This document shows, one piece after another, positions 26,273 to 31,860 of a stretch of 64,000 nt of DNA (the first letter of the stretch is position 1; each line of letters opens with the position of its first letter). The stretch is from positions 1-64,000 of the forward strand of contig PABP01000008.1 of the NCBI GenBank assembly GCA_002699585.1, read 5' to 3'. The notes under the pieces were generated by a model that was given only the letters and a program-made list of their open reading frames with translations, did not search any database and was not told the origin of the DNA. The position numbers and the translations under genes were made by a program. The DNA is from Anaerolineaceae bacterium (GTDB lineage Bacteria > Chloroflexota > Anaerolineae > Aggregatilineales > Phototrophicaceae).

Positions 26273-26797
26273 ATGTCAACCGACCTCAACCTGAGCTTGC
26301 GCCCCGCCACCACCGATCAGTTCACCGCGCTGTATGCCATCCTGGCGCTGGCCGGAGAGCATATGCACCGCGCCCTGGATTTATCCTACTGGCATCCCTT
26401 CCCCTCATCAGATAAATTCATCGCGCGCCTGGCCGAACGCGACAATTACGCGGTCTATCTCGATGATACGCTGGTCGGTACATTTGGCATCGGTCCAAAG
26501 CCTGAACCTTACTATCACGAGGATATGTCCGCGTACTGGCACGGTCCTGATGCACAAGCGACCTATTTCAGTACGTTTGCCATCCTGCCGGGGTATCAAC
26601 AACGCGGGATTGGTTCGTGGTGTATGCAGCAAGCCGACCAGATCGCCCGCGATGGCGGCTATGACTGGCTGCGCTTCGACGCAGTCGCACTCAACAACAA
26701 GCTACTCACGTTTTACAGCCGCCTGGGTTATGAACGACGCGGATTGCTGCCTGTCGGCAGCGTGCAGGTCATGTGCTACGAGAAGCATTTGCGCTGA
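26273..26797 (+). CDS. GNAT acetyltransferase
   Basis: 174 residues: LSLRPATTDQFTALYAI start, TFAILPGYQQRGIGSWCMQQADQIA with the Q/R-x-x-G-x-G acetyl-CoA loop (QQRGIGS), and FDAVALNNKLLTFYSRLGYERRG at the end. Acceptor unknown. AGGACA lies upstream of the start. Confidence 0.88.
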   Translation: MSTDLNLSLRPATTDQFTALYAILALAGEHMHRALDLSYWHPFPSSDKFIARLAERDNYAVYLDDTLVGTFGIGPKPEPYYHEDMSAYWHGPDAQATYFSTFAILPGYQQRGIGSWCMQQADQIARDGGYDWLRFDAVALNNKLLTFYSRLGYERRGLLPVGSVQVMCYEKHLR

Positions 26798-26820
26798 ATC
26801 CTGACTTGTCTGTTACCAAC

Positions 26821-26844
26821 GGGCACAATGTATTGTGCCCCTAC
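26821..26844. repeat. Palindromic repeat, family B copy 3
   Basis: GGGCACAATG/TATTGTGCCC core followed by CTAC; the left GTAG end is missing (CCAAC instead). It lies 24 bp after the acetyltransferase stop. Confidence 0.8.
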
Positions 26845-26849
26845 GCTTG

Positions 26850-27075
26850 CCTCTTTTTAAGAGGAATATAGCCTAACTTGTCGGATAGACCTTGAAGGCG
26901 TGTGTGCCTCATCTAAACGTTAGGGTCGGCACATGCCGCTGGACACTGAAGTGCCCAGCTAGCCAAGTACCAAGTCCACTGAAGGGACTATAAAAACGAG
27001 CAGTCGCAGCGGGTCAGAGTGCCTTTAGTGCACTTCCCGCTGCCTTATCGTAGCCGCACGACTTTAGTCTGCGGC
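26850..27075 (+). ncRNA. Candidate structured RNA with complementary hairpin loops
   Basis: No gene fits this 461-bp gap, but seven hairpins follow one another: CCTCTT/AAGAGG (26850), AGGC/GCCT (26896), CGGC/GCCG (26927), GGACAC/GTGCCC with a TGAA loop (26941), AGTCC/GGACT (26973), GCAGCGGG/CCCGCTGC with an inner AGTGC/GCACT (27006), and GCCGCA/TGCGGC with an inner GAC/GTC (27053). The fifth has the exact loop ACTGAAG and the sixth the exact loop CTTTAGT, which are complementary with one G-U pair on the plus strand. ACTGAAG also occurs in hairpin four and CTTTAGT in hairpin seven. I match it to no known RNA class. It could be a stand-alone RNA or a leader of the kinase gene. Confidence 0.5.
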
Positions 27076-27118
27076 AACATCATGGTAAAACCAAATCAAT
27101 CCAAGACGCTTACCTACC

Positions 27119-27142
27119 GTAGGGGCGCAACATGTTCCGCCC
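27119..27142. repeat. Palindromic repeat, family B copy 4 (degraded)
   Basis: GTAGGGGCGCAACATGTTCCGCCC: like the copy at 26053 but with a G-to-C change in the right arm that breaks one pair. It lies between the RNA candidate and the kinase promoter. Confidence 0.65.
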
Positions 27143-27258
27143 GGACCGCGACCGCTGCGACACAAATAGGGGTCTTTTTTCGGATTGCCCGAAGCACGTT
27201 ATAATGAGCACGGGGGCGTGCGGAGCAACAGCCTATAACAGGCTAAATTCATTTTGCA

Positions 27259-30200
27259 GTGGCCGATTCACCCAGTATTGAGAGACCTATGCAAGAATTA
27301 AGCGGGCACACCATCCGCGCGTACGAAATCAAGGAACAAATTGGCGTTGGCGGCTTTGGCAGCGTCTATCGCGCTGTCCAGTCGAATGTCGACCGCGAAG
27401 TCGCCGTGAAGGTGATTTTGCCGGAACACGCCAATCGCCCGGAATTCATCCAGCGCTTTGCGACCGAAGCGCAGTTGGTCGCCCATCTGGAGCACCCGCA
27501 TATCGTGCCGCTGTACGATTATTGGCGCGACCCCAGCGGGGCTTATCTGGTGATGCGCTATTTGCGCGGCGGTAATCTGCGGGAATCCCTGGCGGAAAAC
27601 GGCGCCTGGGAAGCCAAGCCGACCATCACCCTCATCAACCAGATCGCTGCCGCCCTGGACTTCGCCCATCGCAACAACGTCATTCACCGTGATCTCAAGT
27701 CAGATAACATCCTGCTGGACGAAGAAGGCAATGCCTACCTGACCGACTTCGGCATCGCCAAAGACCTCGTCCAGAACACAACCCTGACCAAAGACATGCT
27801 GCTCGGTACACCCGCCTACCTGGCCCCGGAGCAAATCCGTGGGGAAGGCGCAACCGCCCTGAGCGACATTTACGCGCTCGGCATCCTGACCTATGAAATC
27901 CTGACCGGGACCAAGCCCTTCATTGAAAATACCCCGGCGGCAGTCCTGTTCATGCAGTTGAACGACCCGCTGCCGGATGTCACCCACCAGCGTAGCGACC
28001 TCAACGGCGAGGTTGATGAAGTGCTACAACGGGCTACCGCCAAAGACCTCGACAAGCGTTACGAAACGGCCATCGACTTCGCCTATGCCCTGCAATCCGC
28101 CCTACTCGGCGATACCACCCTGGCCCACGATATTGACATCAGCATGCTGGTCAACGATGGCGCGACCGAGATCATCGCCAAGTACAACCCCTACAAAGGG
28201 TTACGCGCCTTCCAGCAAGCCGATGCCGAAGACTTCTTTGGCCGCAGTCAGTTGGTGGAGCGCCTTCTCAATCGACTTTCTGGACAGGACAATAACGGCC
28301 AATTCTTAGCCGTCGTCGGGCCTAGCGGCAGCGGCAAATCCAGCGTGATCAAAGCCGGGTTACTGCCCGCAGTCCGCAGTGGACGCCTTAATGATGAACC
28401 CTGGTACGTCACCGAGATGGTCCCCGGCACGCACCCCTTTGAAGAACTGGAAGCCGCCCTACTCAAAATCGCCCCCAACGATGTGCCCGATCTGCACAGT
28501 ATCGTCACCAGCGACGAGCGTGGTTTGGTACGGGCCATCAAGCGCATTTTGCCGACCAACGAAGCGCGGGTCATGCTGCTCATCGACCAGTTTGAGGAAA
28601 TTTTTACGCTGGTCGATGACGAGAAGCGGCGCAAGCTCTTTTTGGACAGCCTGCTAGCGGCAGCCGCCGACGAGCGCAGCCAGGTGACGATCATCATCAC
28701 CCTGCGCGCCGATTTTTACGACCGTCCGCTGCTGTATGGCGAATTCGGCGAGTTGATCCGTCAGCGCACGGAATTGGTGCTGCCATTGACCAACGCCCAA
28801 TTGGAAGAAGCCATCACCGAACCCGCTCATCGCGTGAATATGGATCTGGAAAACGGGCTTGTGGATGCCATCATCAAGGATGTTCGCCAGCAGCCCGGTG
28901 CGCTGCCCATGCTGCAATATGCCCTAACCGAGCTGTTCGAGCGCCGCGCCGGACGCATGCTGACCCTCGACGCTTACCACGAAATTGGCGGCACATCCGG
29001 TGCATTGGCCCGCCGTGCGGAAGAAATATTCGGCCAGCTTGATGACCTGGAAGCGGAAGCCGCCCGTCAGATTTTCCTGCGGTTGGTGACATTGGGCGAT
29101 GGCACCGAAGACACTCGCCGCCGCGTCCTGATTTCCGAGTTGCTCTCACTGACAACCGACCGCGCCATCATTGAACACGTGCTGGATACCTTCGGCAAGT
29201 ATCGTCTGCTGACCTTCGACCGCGACCCGGTCACGCGCAACGCTACCATCGAAGTCGCCCATGAGGCCCTCATCCGCCAGTGGGAACGTATGCGCGGCTG
29301 GTTAGATGAATCGCGCGAGGTCCTGCGCTTGCAGCGCCAGCTCAACACGGCCACCCGCGATTGGCTCAAAGCCGATCATGACCCCAGCTTTTTGGCGACG
29401 GGCATCCGCTTGCAGCAGTTAGAAGACCTGGCCGCTACCAGCGACATCGTGCTCAATCAGGATGAATCGGCTTATTTACAGGCCAGCGTGGAACAGCGCG
29501 AAGCCCGTCTAGAAACCGAACGCCAGCGTCAGGCCCAGGAAGAAGCGCTCAAGCAGCGGGCACGACGTTTTTTGATGGCTTTCGCTGTGGTGATGGCCTT
29601 CGCCGCCGTCATCCTCGGTCTGCTGGCCGTTTTCGGGTATACGCAGAGTCAATTAGCGACGGAAGCACAGCTTGTCGCCGAAGCCAATGCGGATACTTCG
29701 CGGAGTCTGGCACTGGCCGCCAATGCGCGTAACGCTGCCGCCGAAAATGACCCGCAGCTAGCGCTGGCCCTGGCCCTGGAAGCCGAAAAAGTCCAGGATA
29801 GCAACGCGCCGGAAGTCGTGCGCGTGCTCGGTGACCTGGCCTATGCCCCTGGTCCGGCCTATCGACTGAGCCAGCATACAGGTGCTGTAATGAACGTGGC
29901 ATTCAGTAAGGATGGCCAAATGGCCGCTTCGGTTGGGCTGGATGGCCAACTAGTCATCTGGCAGGTAGACGATCAGACGATCTTGCAGCAAATCGACCTG
30001 CGTGACGAATTATTCGCCTTCGATGTCGTATTCCACCCCACTGAGCGAATAGTCGCTATTGGCCTGGACAACGGTACGCTCCAATTCTGGGACATCGACA
30101 GCGGCGACATGACATTGGCCATCGAGGCCCACGATGGGCCGATCCACAGCCTGGATTACAGCCCGGATGGCAGCCAGCTCGTTACAGGTGGCGCGGATAA

Positions 30201-31860
30201 AGTAATCCGATTATGGGATGCCGACAGCGGCGACCTCATTCAAGAATTTGAGGGCCACACCGGGCAAATATTCCGCGTGGTGTTCTCACCAAAAGGCGAC
30301 CAGATTGCATCCAGCAGTGGCGATGAAACCCTGGCCGACGACGCCGACGATGCTGTTGATCGCACCATCCGTCTGTGGAGCCTGACCAGTGACCGGGTGA
30401 TTACCATCCAGCCCGATTCCGGGTTCCCGCGAGCGCTGGCCTACAGTCCCAATGGTCAGACTATCGCCTACGGTGTGTGGGATAACGACCTGGGCGGCAC
30501 GACGCGCCTGCACGAAACGATCACAGGCATCGAAATCAATCGCTTGTTCGGGCACAGCACCCCGATTAGCGACATTGCCTTCAGCCCGGATGGCAGCACC
30601 CTGGCGACCGCCGCCTGGGACCGCGTCATCAAGCTGTGGGACATCCAACGCGGCATTGAAACGCGCAACTTCACCGGCGTACCCGACCGTATCCTCAGCC
30701 TGGAGTACAGCCCCAATGGCGAATATCTGCTGCTAGGGACGGGCAACGCAGGCGACAACGTGGTCACAGTCGCTAGTGAAGCCAGCATCGCCAGTGATGT
30801 CTGGTTGTGGGATTTGCAGCGCCGGGATGCTGTGCGGCAGTATGCGGAGTATCAGGATTGGCTGTGGGCAGTTGCTATCCATCCCGATGGCGACATCGCC
30901 GCCAGTGCCGGTGGGCCGCTGCGCCTGGAAGCGGGTGCCGACATTGATACCAGCGTCCACCTATGGGACATCCACGCAGGCGAAACCATTGCCATCTTAG
31001 AGGGTCATACCAACACCGTCGATAGCCTCGTTTTCCACCCCGATGGCCAGCATCTGCTTTCCGCAAGTTGGGACGGCGATATTATCCTGTGGGACAGCGA
31101 AACAGGCGAACAAGTCCGTACTTACAGCGATCACGCCGGACGGGTATATGATGTCAATTTCAGCGCCGATGGCAGCCGCTTTGTTTCCGCAGGTGGTTCC
31201 GGGGATGCCACCTCGTATTCCCGCACGGCCATTCTCTACGATACCGACAGCGGCGAGATCATCCGCGTGTTCAGTGGCCACGAGAACGACGTCAACAGCG
31301 CCGTTTTCAGTCCCGATGAAAGCATGATCGCGACCGGGTCCGCCGATGGCAGCATCCGCATCTGGAACGCCGAAACAGGCGAAACGGTCCGCACGCTGGA
31401 AGGCCATAGCAGCAGCGTCAACGAGGTCCTTTTCAGCCCCGATGGCAGCCTGCTGGCCAGCACGTCCTGGGACGATACCGTGCGCCTGTGGAACGTGGAA
31501 ACCGGCGAGGAAATTCGGCAGTTTGTCGGCCACACGAATAACACCTTCGGGCTGGCCTTCTCGCCCGATGGCCGCACCCTGTTGACGACCTCCACCGACC
31601 AGACGTTACGTCTGTGGGACGTCGTTAGCGGCGAGGAAGTGCATCGTTACCTCAACCACACCAACTGGATTCAGGAAGTGGTCTTCACGCCCGATGGCAC
31701 CCAGGCCATTTCTGTCGCTCAGGATGAACTAGCCATTGTCTGGCGCGTGGATGGCAGCGTCGATAGCATCATCAACTTCGCCCAGGGCAATCGCTACCTG
31801 CGCGACCTCACCTGCCAGGAGCGCGAACGCTACAATCTGTCGCTGTGTGAGGCGGAGTAG
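27259..31860 (+). CDS. Ser/Thr kinase - STAND NTPase - WD40 fusion protein
   Basis: 1533 residues from a GTG; the ATG at 27289 has a better ribosome site (GAGAGA) and may be the true start. Domains in order: Hanks kinase (about 20-300) with G-loop GVGGFGSVY, Lys51, HRDLKSDN (143-150), DFG (163-165) and APEQ, all complete. Then the nSTAND1 NTPase starts with NPYKGLRAFQQADAEDFFGR, with P-loop GPSGSGKSS near 353 and Walker B MLLIDQFEEIF near 438. A helical arm with a membrane helix (FLMAFAVVMAFAAVILGLLAVFG near 772) follows, and more than a dozen WD40 repeats (about 870-1510, with repeated SPDGS...IRLWD). A TATAAT -10 box is at 27200. A signalling protein, likely with a WD40 sensor outside the membrane. 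Confidence 0.93.
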   Translation: MADSPSIERPMQELSGHTIRAYEIKEQIGVGGFGSVYRAVQSNVDREVAVKVILPEHANRPEFIQRFATEAQLVAHLEHPHIVPLYDYWRDPSGAYLVMRYLRGGNLRESLAENGAWEAKPTITLINQIAAALDFAHRNNVIHRDLKSDNILLDEEGNAYLTDFGIAKDLVQNTTLTKDMLLGTPAYLAPEQIRGEGATALSDIYALGILTYEILTGTKPFIENTPAAVLFMQLNDPLPDVTHQRSDLNGEVDEVLQRATAKDLDKRYETAIDFAYALQSALLGDTTLAHDIDISMLVNDGATEIIAKYNPYKGLRAFQQADAEDFFGRSQLVERLLNRLSGQDNNGQFLAVVGPSGSGKSSVIKAGLLPAVRSGRLNDEPWYVTEMVPGTHPFEELEAALLKIAPNDVPDLHSIVTSDERGLVRAIKRILPTNEARVMLLIDQFEEIFTLVDDEKRRKLFLDSLLAAAADERSQVTIIITLRADFYDRPLLYGEFGELIRQRTELVLPLTNAQLEEAITEPAHRVNMDLENGLVDAIIKDVRQQPGALPMLQYALTELFERRAGRMLTLDAYHEIGGTSGALARRAEEIFGQLDDLEAEAARQIFLRLVTLGDGTEDTRRRVLISELLSLTTDRAIIEHVLDTFGKYRLLTFDRDPVTRNATIEVAHEALIRQWERMRGWLDESREVLRLQRQLNTATRDWLKADHDPSFLATGIRLQQLEDLAATSDIVLNQDESAYLQASVEQREARLETERQRQAQEEALKQRARRFLMAFAVVMAFAAVILGLLAVFGYTQSQLATEAQLVAEANADTSRSLALAANARNAAAENDPQLALALALEAEKVQDSNAPEVVRVLGDLAYAPGPAYRLSQHTGAVMNVAFSKDGQMAASVGLDGQLVIWQVDDQTILQQIDLRDELFAFDVVFHPTERIVAIGLDNGTLQFWDIDSGDMTLAIEAHDGPIHSLDYSPDGSQLVTGGADKVIRLWDADSGDLIQEFEGHTGQIFRVVFSPKGDQIASSSGDETLADDADDAVDRTIRLWSLTSDRVITIQPDSGFPRALAYSPNGQTIAYGVWDNDLGGTTRLHETITGIEINRLFGHSTPISDIAFSPDGSTLATAAWDRVIKLWDIQRGIETRNFTGVPDRILSLEYSPNGEYLLLGTGNAGDNVVTVASEASIASDVWLWDLQRRDAVRQYAEYQDWLWAVAIHPDGDIAASAGGPLRLEAGADIDTSVHLWDIHAGETIAILEGHTNTVDSLVFHPDGQHLLSASWDGDIILWDSETGEQVRTYSDHAGRVYDVNFSADGSRFVSAGGSGDATSYSRTAILYDTDSGEIIRVFSGHENDVNSAVFSPDESMIATGSADGSIRIWNAETGETVRTLEGHSSSVNEVLFSPDGSLLASTSWDDTVRLWNVETGEEIRQFVGHTNNTFGLAFSPDGRTLLTTSTDQTLRLWDVVSGEEVHRYLNHTNWIQEVVFTPDGTQAISVAQDELAIVWRVDGSVDSIINFAQGNRYLRDLTCQERERYNLSLCEAE

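Follow-up and report, generated by a model that had tools for sequence, protein, structure and literature searches.

Between two genes of an Anaerolineae genome, seven hairpins follow one another on the plus strand, and two of them carry seven-base loops that are complementary over their whole length. A preliminary description of this DNA proposed that the two loops kiss within a structured RNA. Is the locus an RNA gene, or does the match between its loops have another origin?

The locus and its fold

Coordinates refer to the window, the whole stretch of 64,000 nucleotides that was analysed. The element discussed here is flanked by a GNAT acetyltransferase gene (26273–26797) and a kinase-nSTAND1-WD40 gene (27259–31860), which share their direction of transcription; the sole listed open reading frame of at least 60 aa that overlaps it encodes 61 aa (27019–27204). 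The seven successive plus-strand hairpins in 26850–27080 were confirmed by RNAfold, which gave −89 kcal/mol where shuffled sequences averaged −68 (z −4.5; none of 200 reached so low a value). The minus strand of this segment also folds (z −4.8), and the element alone (26935–27078), folded as DNA, reached z −5.1 on the plus strand and −4.0 on the minus strand.

Direct reading bore out what had been described of the two hairpins with matching loops. Both stems and loops are exact, the first (hp2 in Table 1) with its loop at 26978–26984 and the second, the core of hp3 at 27017–27035, with its loop at 27023–27029, and in this copy the loops are exactly complementary with one G-U pair. Each heptamer occurs a second time, ACTGAAG at 26945–26951 and CTTTAGT at 27062–27068, in the first and the last, respectively, of the final four hairpins.

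The locus had also been said to match no known class of RNA, and no Rfam family exceeded its gathering threshold in the window (0 matches). At E up to 5, MicL alone appeared, at 27115–27181 and outside the hairpins, with a chance-like score of 17.4 bits where 56 are needed. A known RNA family was therefore rejected, as was a tRNA or tmRNA, none being present at the locus. A loop-centred scan of the window recovered one hairpin of the element and, elsewhere, nothing beyond chance.

A dispersed repeat of four hairpins

The segment 26935–27078 is one copy of a dispersed element of about 140 bp with four hairpins (Table 1). When 26800–27200 was searched against the 42 contigs (6.70 Mb) of the window's own genome, other places matched parts of 26936–27079, eight of them over at least 65 bases and with 78–85% identity to the window copy. 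There were zero matches in 26859–26935, so that the first three of the seven hairpins lie outside the repeated unit, which is made up of the other four. A unique RNA gene was rejected, since the sequence recurs in its own genome. The element does lie upstream of the kinase-STAND-WD40 gene, as described; however, the flanks of the own-genome copies cannot be aligned with one another, and this gene is thus just the neighbour of the window copy.

The same four hairpins are found in folded copies from relatives. A covariance model, R1, was built from 11 copies from five genomes; at E up to 0.01 it matches 12 distinct places in the window's own genome and finds the element in 44 of 98 family genomes, and at E up to 0.001 it has matches in 61 of 154 genomes across the order. 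For several genomes the numbers of copies are lower bounds, as at most 32 candidates per genome were scored in the family search and 20 in that of the order. The stems covary among these relatives. Standard pairs fill 84.2% of the pair cells when the 11 sequences are aligned, compared with 75.7% in shuffles and 32–44% in slid controls; the structure having been drawn on the window copy, the comparison with slid versions is biased in its favour. Of 36 pairs, 14 changed on both sides (9.4 in shuffles), including five of the eight pairs of helix 1 (hp1), while a measure of further pair types was not above the shuffles (26 against 30.7). Across 70 copies the internal stems include the compensating sets AGCCC/GGGCT, AGCGC/GCGCT, AGTCC/GGACT, AACCC/GGGTT and AGTCT/AGACT. 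The same-genus genome G001 has no match to the window locus and so is uninformative on an empty site; no insertion polymorphism was found in this comparison.

Table 1. Features of the window copy of the four-hairpin element
Feature	Position	Strand	Basis
Four-hairpin element (one copy)	26935–27078	+ (as modelled; roughly symmetric)	R1 covariance model
hp1, left terminal hairpin, GCTGG.CAC[TGAA]GTG.CCAGC	26938–26959	−	folds; minus-strand loop TTCA
hp2, left internal hairpin, AGTCC[ACTGAAG]GGACT	26973–26989	−	direct read, covariation; minus-strand loop CTTCAGT
hp3, right internal hairpin, GCAGCGGG TCA GAGTGC[CTTTAGT]GCACTT CCCGCTGC	27006–27043	+	direct read, covariation
hp4, right terminal hairpin, TAG foot, GCCGCA.GAC[TTTA]GTC.TGCGGC	27051–27075	+	direct read, covariation

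Two halves in inverted orientation make up the element: hp1 is roughly an inverted hp4, and hp2 an inverted hp3. Because the halves are inverted, R1 matches 91 of 95 copies, from 30 genomes, on the opposite strand too (E up to 1e-6). These copies, for each of which one strand was chosen by hand, come from a set of 94 loci; the partial own-genome copies L055–L062 and L078 (the same place as L179) were left out, and the second elements in L072, L082 and L086 were omitted. In the partial own-genome copies, hp3 is the best preserved hairpin.

Both loop heptamers are preserved among relatives, as ACTRAAG in hp2 and CTTYAGT in hp3, and, on the matching strand, the internal loops can be taken as a C-TTYA-G tetraloop enlarged by a single T. 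By eye, the feet of the terminal hairpins are YAGCC-like, and a C-TTYA-G apex is frequent. A GT[AG]G motif does not characterise the palindrome feet, and the GTAG at hp4 of the window copy is owed solely to the variable first base. Sequence beyond the hairpins is conserved in several genomes (by eye), so that the true ends of the element may lie further out.

A second family of repeats occurs nearby. Short palindromes that end in GTAGGGGC flank the element at 26820–26845 and 27119–27142, and the own-genome matches also cover two short palindromes near 26820–26858 and 27111–27143. The window holds 10 sites of GTAGGGGC, eight of them beyond the flanking pair, where 1.35 are expected; the palindromes that end in it have many near-identical copies in the genome and resemble GTAG-tagged REPs. 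GTAGGG-type palindromes were seen near the element, often on both sides, at L141, L153, L158, L160 (G041) and L063 (G021); judged by eye, this appears, as in the window, to be a nested or preferred arrangement.

Complementary loops and strand asymmetry

Pairing between the internal loops was assessed in 70 of the 95 copies, the other 25, which include L052–L054 from the window's own genome, being without a strict heptaloop in both internal hairpins. At the variable position, R in ACTRAAG and Y in CTTYAGT, the loops form a Watson-Crick pair in 33 of the 70 copies. Shuffling the hp3 loops within genomes gives a mean of 38.5, and 99% of such shuffles reach the observed value. With G-U allowed, 49 copies pair on the plus strand and 54 on the minus strand, against 51.8 and 56.8 expected. 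This small deficit may be due to chance. GCTRAAG (15 copies) never occurs together with CTTYAGC (3 copies), and the remaining loop positions are near-invariant and hence uninformative. The stems of hp2 and hp3 are identical within a copy in 12 of 70 cases, compared with a permutation mean of 13.2.

Wobble pairs provide a further test, since every hairpin of an RNA should favour G-U over A-C when read on the RNA's own strand. Each distinct terminal hairpin having seven pairs and a TTYA loop was counted once; these were drawn from 15 of 95 hp4 and 38 of 95 hp1 hairpins and belong to mutually related copies. In hp4 the ratio of G.T to A.C is 7:1 on the plus strand (12 distinct hairpins), and in hp1 it is 22:1 on the minus strand (23 distinct hairpins). 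The hp1 wobbles come from 12 genomes and those of hp4 from four, with the lone A.C in a fifth; in both hairpins they concentrate at the sixth pair from the loop (five of seven in hp4, 12 of 22 in hp1). The internal hairpins are without clear strand asymmetry (hp3 7:1, hp2 4:4). The terminal hairpins of the two halves are thus maintained foldable on opposite strands, in each case where the loop reads TTYA.

The match between the hp2 and hp3 loops is most likely a product of these mirror-image halves and not of kissing RNA loops: the loops are complementary because the two halves are inverted versions of each other. As this case shows, perfect complementarity between loops can come from the inverted halves of a mobile element, which is a pitfall in any search for kissing RNAs in raw sequence.

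A neighbouring Y1 transposase

A search of the same 98 family genomes for the Y1_Tnp domain (PF01797) led to genes beside copies of the element. When 31 Y1 loci were scanned with R1, an element lay within 161 bp at 16 of the 17 loci of one subfamily (L104–L120, except L111), whereas it did so at one of the 14 other Y1 loci (L097, E 0.004). The same was true of 15 of a further 18 genes of this HUH/Y1 clade (not L195, L234 or L237) and of all four of another four, which brings the total to 35 of 39. The genes scanned comprise the partial gene L204 and 38 of the 54 matches scoring more than 130 bits, a threshold set after the score list had been inspected. Elements often flank the transposase gene on both sides, for example at L104, L194, L202 and L222. 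As background, at the threshold used for elements in these scans, a second element lay within 1.5 kb at three of 34 element-centred loci, in one case within 161 bp; by its coordinates L086, one of these three, itself contains a clade transposase gene.

Gene and element also occur together across genomes. The element is present in 33 of the 35 genomes that carry the gene and in 28 of the 119 others (Fisher p 1.6e-14, uncorrected for relatedness); two genomes have the gene and no element, and the 28 with the element and no clade gene above 130 bits include the window's own. Its assembly is 96% complete and yielded no clade gene, the best match being its IS200 (78 bits), so that its copies of the element are probably orphaned; the gene may have been lost or be missing. 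That the element is a substrate of the resident IS200 (L047) was rejected, as there is no R1 match round L047. Gene-adjacent copies were clearly nearest to sampled copies from the same genome in three of 13 tests (twice in G034 and once in G030), with one more marginal case, and gene-adjacent and dispersed copies are often of different subtype.

Several arrangements around these genes deserve mention. At L138 (G034:C53), two direct elements that are 96% identical (446–584 and 1090–1228) bracket a transposase gene, resembling a small element-gene-element unit. At L236 (G064:C157), at least five tandem copies of the element (109–860) lie right beside a transposase gene. A plasmid search for the transposase gave, among the matches listed (30 of 1036), proteins all below 60% identity, many of them named IS200-type, and a further plasmid search gave none.

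Assignment of the transposase

The clade proteins are about 137 aa long and carry the motifs DH[IV]H (28 of 31), WQ (31 of 31) and Y[IV]..Q..HH (27 of 31). WQ is found in none of 11 IS200-type proteins, and the two groups split cleanly (support 0.996) in a comparison for which 31 of 32 clade and 11 of 13 IS200-type proteins were recovered. Five clade proteins scored 75–98 bits as IS200/IS605 transposases (cut-off 55) and at most 35 bits as NCBIfam REP_Tyr_transpos (cut-off 80), and the clade profile matches the solved ISHp608 TnpA (E 4e-24). Full-length genes above 130 bits number one to four per genome in 35 of 154 genomes, and their proteins are 40–60% identical to the first sequence of their alignment. 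Among 24 relatives in a contig database, 23 are named Anaerolineae, Anaerolineaceae, Aggregatilineales or Chloroflexi, and one Bacteroidetes.

By motif, the clade corresponds to subclass 1.2 of TnpA_Y1 as published by Quentin et al. 2018 (PMC6006769). The sections of that study on this subclass give the motifs DH[IV]H, WQ and YIKNQKEHH, a median length of 148 aa, 1.7 copies and 36% identity, and place it near the IS200 transposases, mostly in Cyanobacteria and Bacteroidetes, with REP entered as 'no', generally without IS-type ends and without a known role. The clade agrees in its motifs and in its low copy number and low identity between copies within genomes. It departs in having the element beside 35 of 39 genes, so the putative membership is one of motifs. 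A repeat beside subclass 1.2-type genes is the new point here, these genes having been published as without REPs.

Other relatives of the Y1 domain were noted. Once per genome in many genomes, a weak Y1_Tnp-like domain occurs in long proteins (open frames of about 550–1470 aa); in one of these (L048, G000:C23:574489-574815) no HxH motif was found, and the domain is possibly a domesticated, inactive HUH domain. In G001, of the same genus as the window's genome, 11 equally scoring IS200-type copies indicate a recent IS200 expansion, where the window's genome has one relative (L047).

Interpretation and alternatives

We consider it probable that the window locus is a copy of a non-autonomous, REPIN-like family of elements of Anaerolineae that is read as folded ssDNA by a subclass 1.2 HUH transposase. 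Each half would comprise a terminal hairpin, with a YAGCC-like foot and often a C-TTYA-G apex, and the adjoining internal hairpin with loop CTTYAGT, and one half would be displayed on each DNA strand, namely the strand on which the terminal loop reads TTYA. The hairpins would form while the DNA is single-stranded, for example at a replication fork, and a short HUH transposase of the IS200/IS605 type, assigned to subclass 1.2 on its motifs, would then recognise them through their loop and irregularity, cut and rejoin the DNA near them, and so spread the element in trans. Transposase binding, cleavage and movement of the element are what we infer; the anatomy of the element, its dispersal and its company were observed.

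Three other explanations have to be weighed against this. A structured plus-strand RNA, with the hp2 and hp3 loops kissing over seven bases, has in its favour the exact complementarity of the window loops, the retention of both heptamers among relatives and the strong plus-strand fold. Yet the variable loop position shows no co-variation, the terminal hairpins place their wobbles on opposite strands, which is unexpected from one RNA, and the element is multi-copy and dispersed, with inverted halves. The kissing-loop RNA is thus not supported and we regard it as very improbable. It is unlikely, to a lesser degree, that a different transposase mobilises the element, which would then be a DDE-type miniature element (MITE) or would hitch-hike on other repeats, Y1 genes being just a preferred neighbour. 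The frequent difference in subtype between gene-adjacent and dispersed copies would suit such an origin, as would the conserved, partly inverted sequence outside the hairpins within several genomes (by eye), which lies near GCACCAACTTAA and TTAATCTGGTGC in G041 and G021 and takes the form of AGGACTTACGCA and TGCGTAAGTCCT in G023 and of GTTGCAAAG and TTTGCAAC in G006. These outer sequences vary by genome, however, while the hairpins persist, and among transposases of the Y1 family, the one searched, the element keeps close company with a single clade, often on both sides of the gene.

A decayed mobile element retained for a role in the host, such as termination, protection of mRNA ends or nucleoid binding, as proposed for REPs, likewise appears distinctly unlikely as the explanation. 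The modest identity of the eight longer own-genome matches, the failure to find a cognate gene in that genome and the position between two co-directionally transcribed genes are in keeping with it, but it accounts for the maintenance of the element and not for its anatomy, and it is compatible with the REPIN-like reading.

On the REPIN-like reading, the element beside the clade genes is a concrete candidate ssDNA substrate for a group of transposases described as having none. A more specific proposal, to which we give slightly better than even credence, is that the orphan TnpA_Y1 subclass 1.2 has here its missing substrate, a two-headed, four-hairpin element offering one transposase-readable pair of hairpins per strand. 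The system would be another kind of REPtron, intermediate between IS200/IS605 and TnpA_REP, and would have spread through an order of Anaerolineae.

Comparison with known systems

No four-hairpin element of this kind was described in the titles and abstract openings of the papers found on subclass 1.2 (after 2018), on REPIN/RAYT in Chloroflexota or Anaerolineae, or on Chloroflexi IS200 or MITE hairpins. In the relevant part of one study, 2,724 REPs are counted in Anaerolinea thermolimosa, with no link there to a four-hairpin element (PMC12306157). As far as subclass 1.2 is set out in PMC6006769, the clade resembles it in its motifs, its length of about 137 aa and its few divergent copies per genome, and is unlike it in occurring in Anaerolineae and beside a repeat.

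With IS200/IS605 elements such as IS608 and ISDra2 the system shares an HUH/Y1 transposase, homologous to ISHp608 TnpA. The ends of IS608 have been described (extract of PMC5934647), and, in the passages on it in PMC8266576, its transposase contacts an unpaired T17 and a loop T10, which the loop T and extra unpaired T of the hairpins described here recall. Unlike in IS200/IS605, the repeats far outnumber the genes, and these are divergent single copies, in contrast to the 11 equally scoring IS200 copies of G001. TIRtrons and their TIRYT genes (Di Nocera et al. 2013, PMC3733652) are similar in that Y1 transposases are flanked by non-GTAG repeats, some of them double palindromes; the portion of that paper concerned tells of GTAG repeats in Chloroflexi and of Y1 genes with inverted repeats of other kinds on their flanks, but its TIRYT section holds no Chloroflexi example, and the likeness is one of description.

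The closest parallel in organisation is the REPtron, in which REPINs or BIMEs accompany a TnpA_REP (RAYT) gene. In the accounts given in parts of PMC6006769 and PMC8266576, short palindromes occur in inverted pairs and in many copies, and repeats adjoin low-copy Y1 transposase genes, as they do here; guide tetranucleotides lie 5' of the palindromes, GTAG being the one used by TnpA_REP (PMC8266576). The present element differs in having four hairpins and not two, and a YAGCC-like foot in place of GTAG, and its clade transposase has Y...Q without the ...NP motif and falls below the REP_Tyr_transpos cut-off. The pair of element and transposase may link insertion sequences with the domesticated REP transposases.
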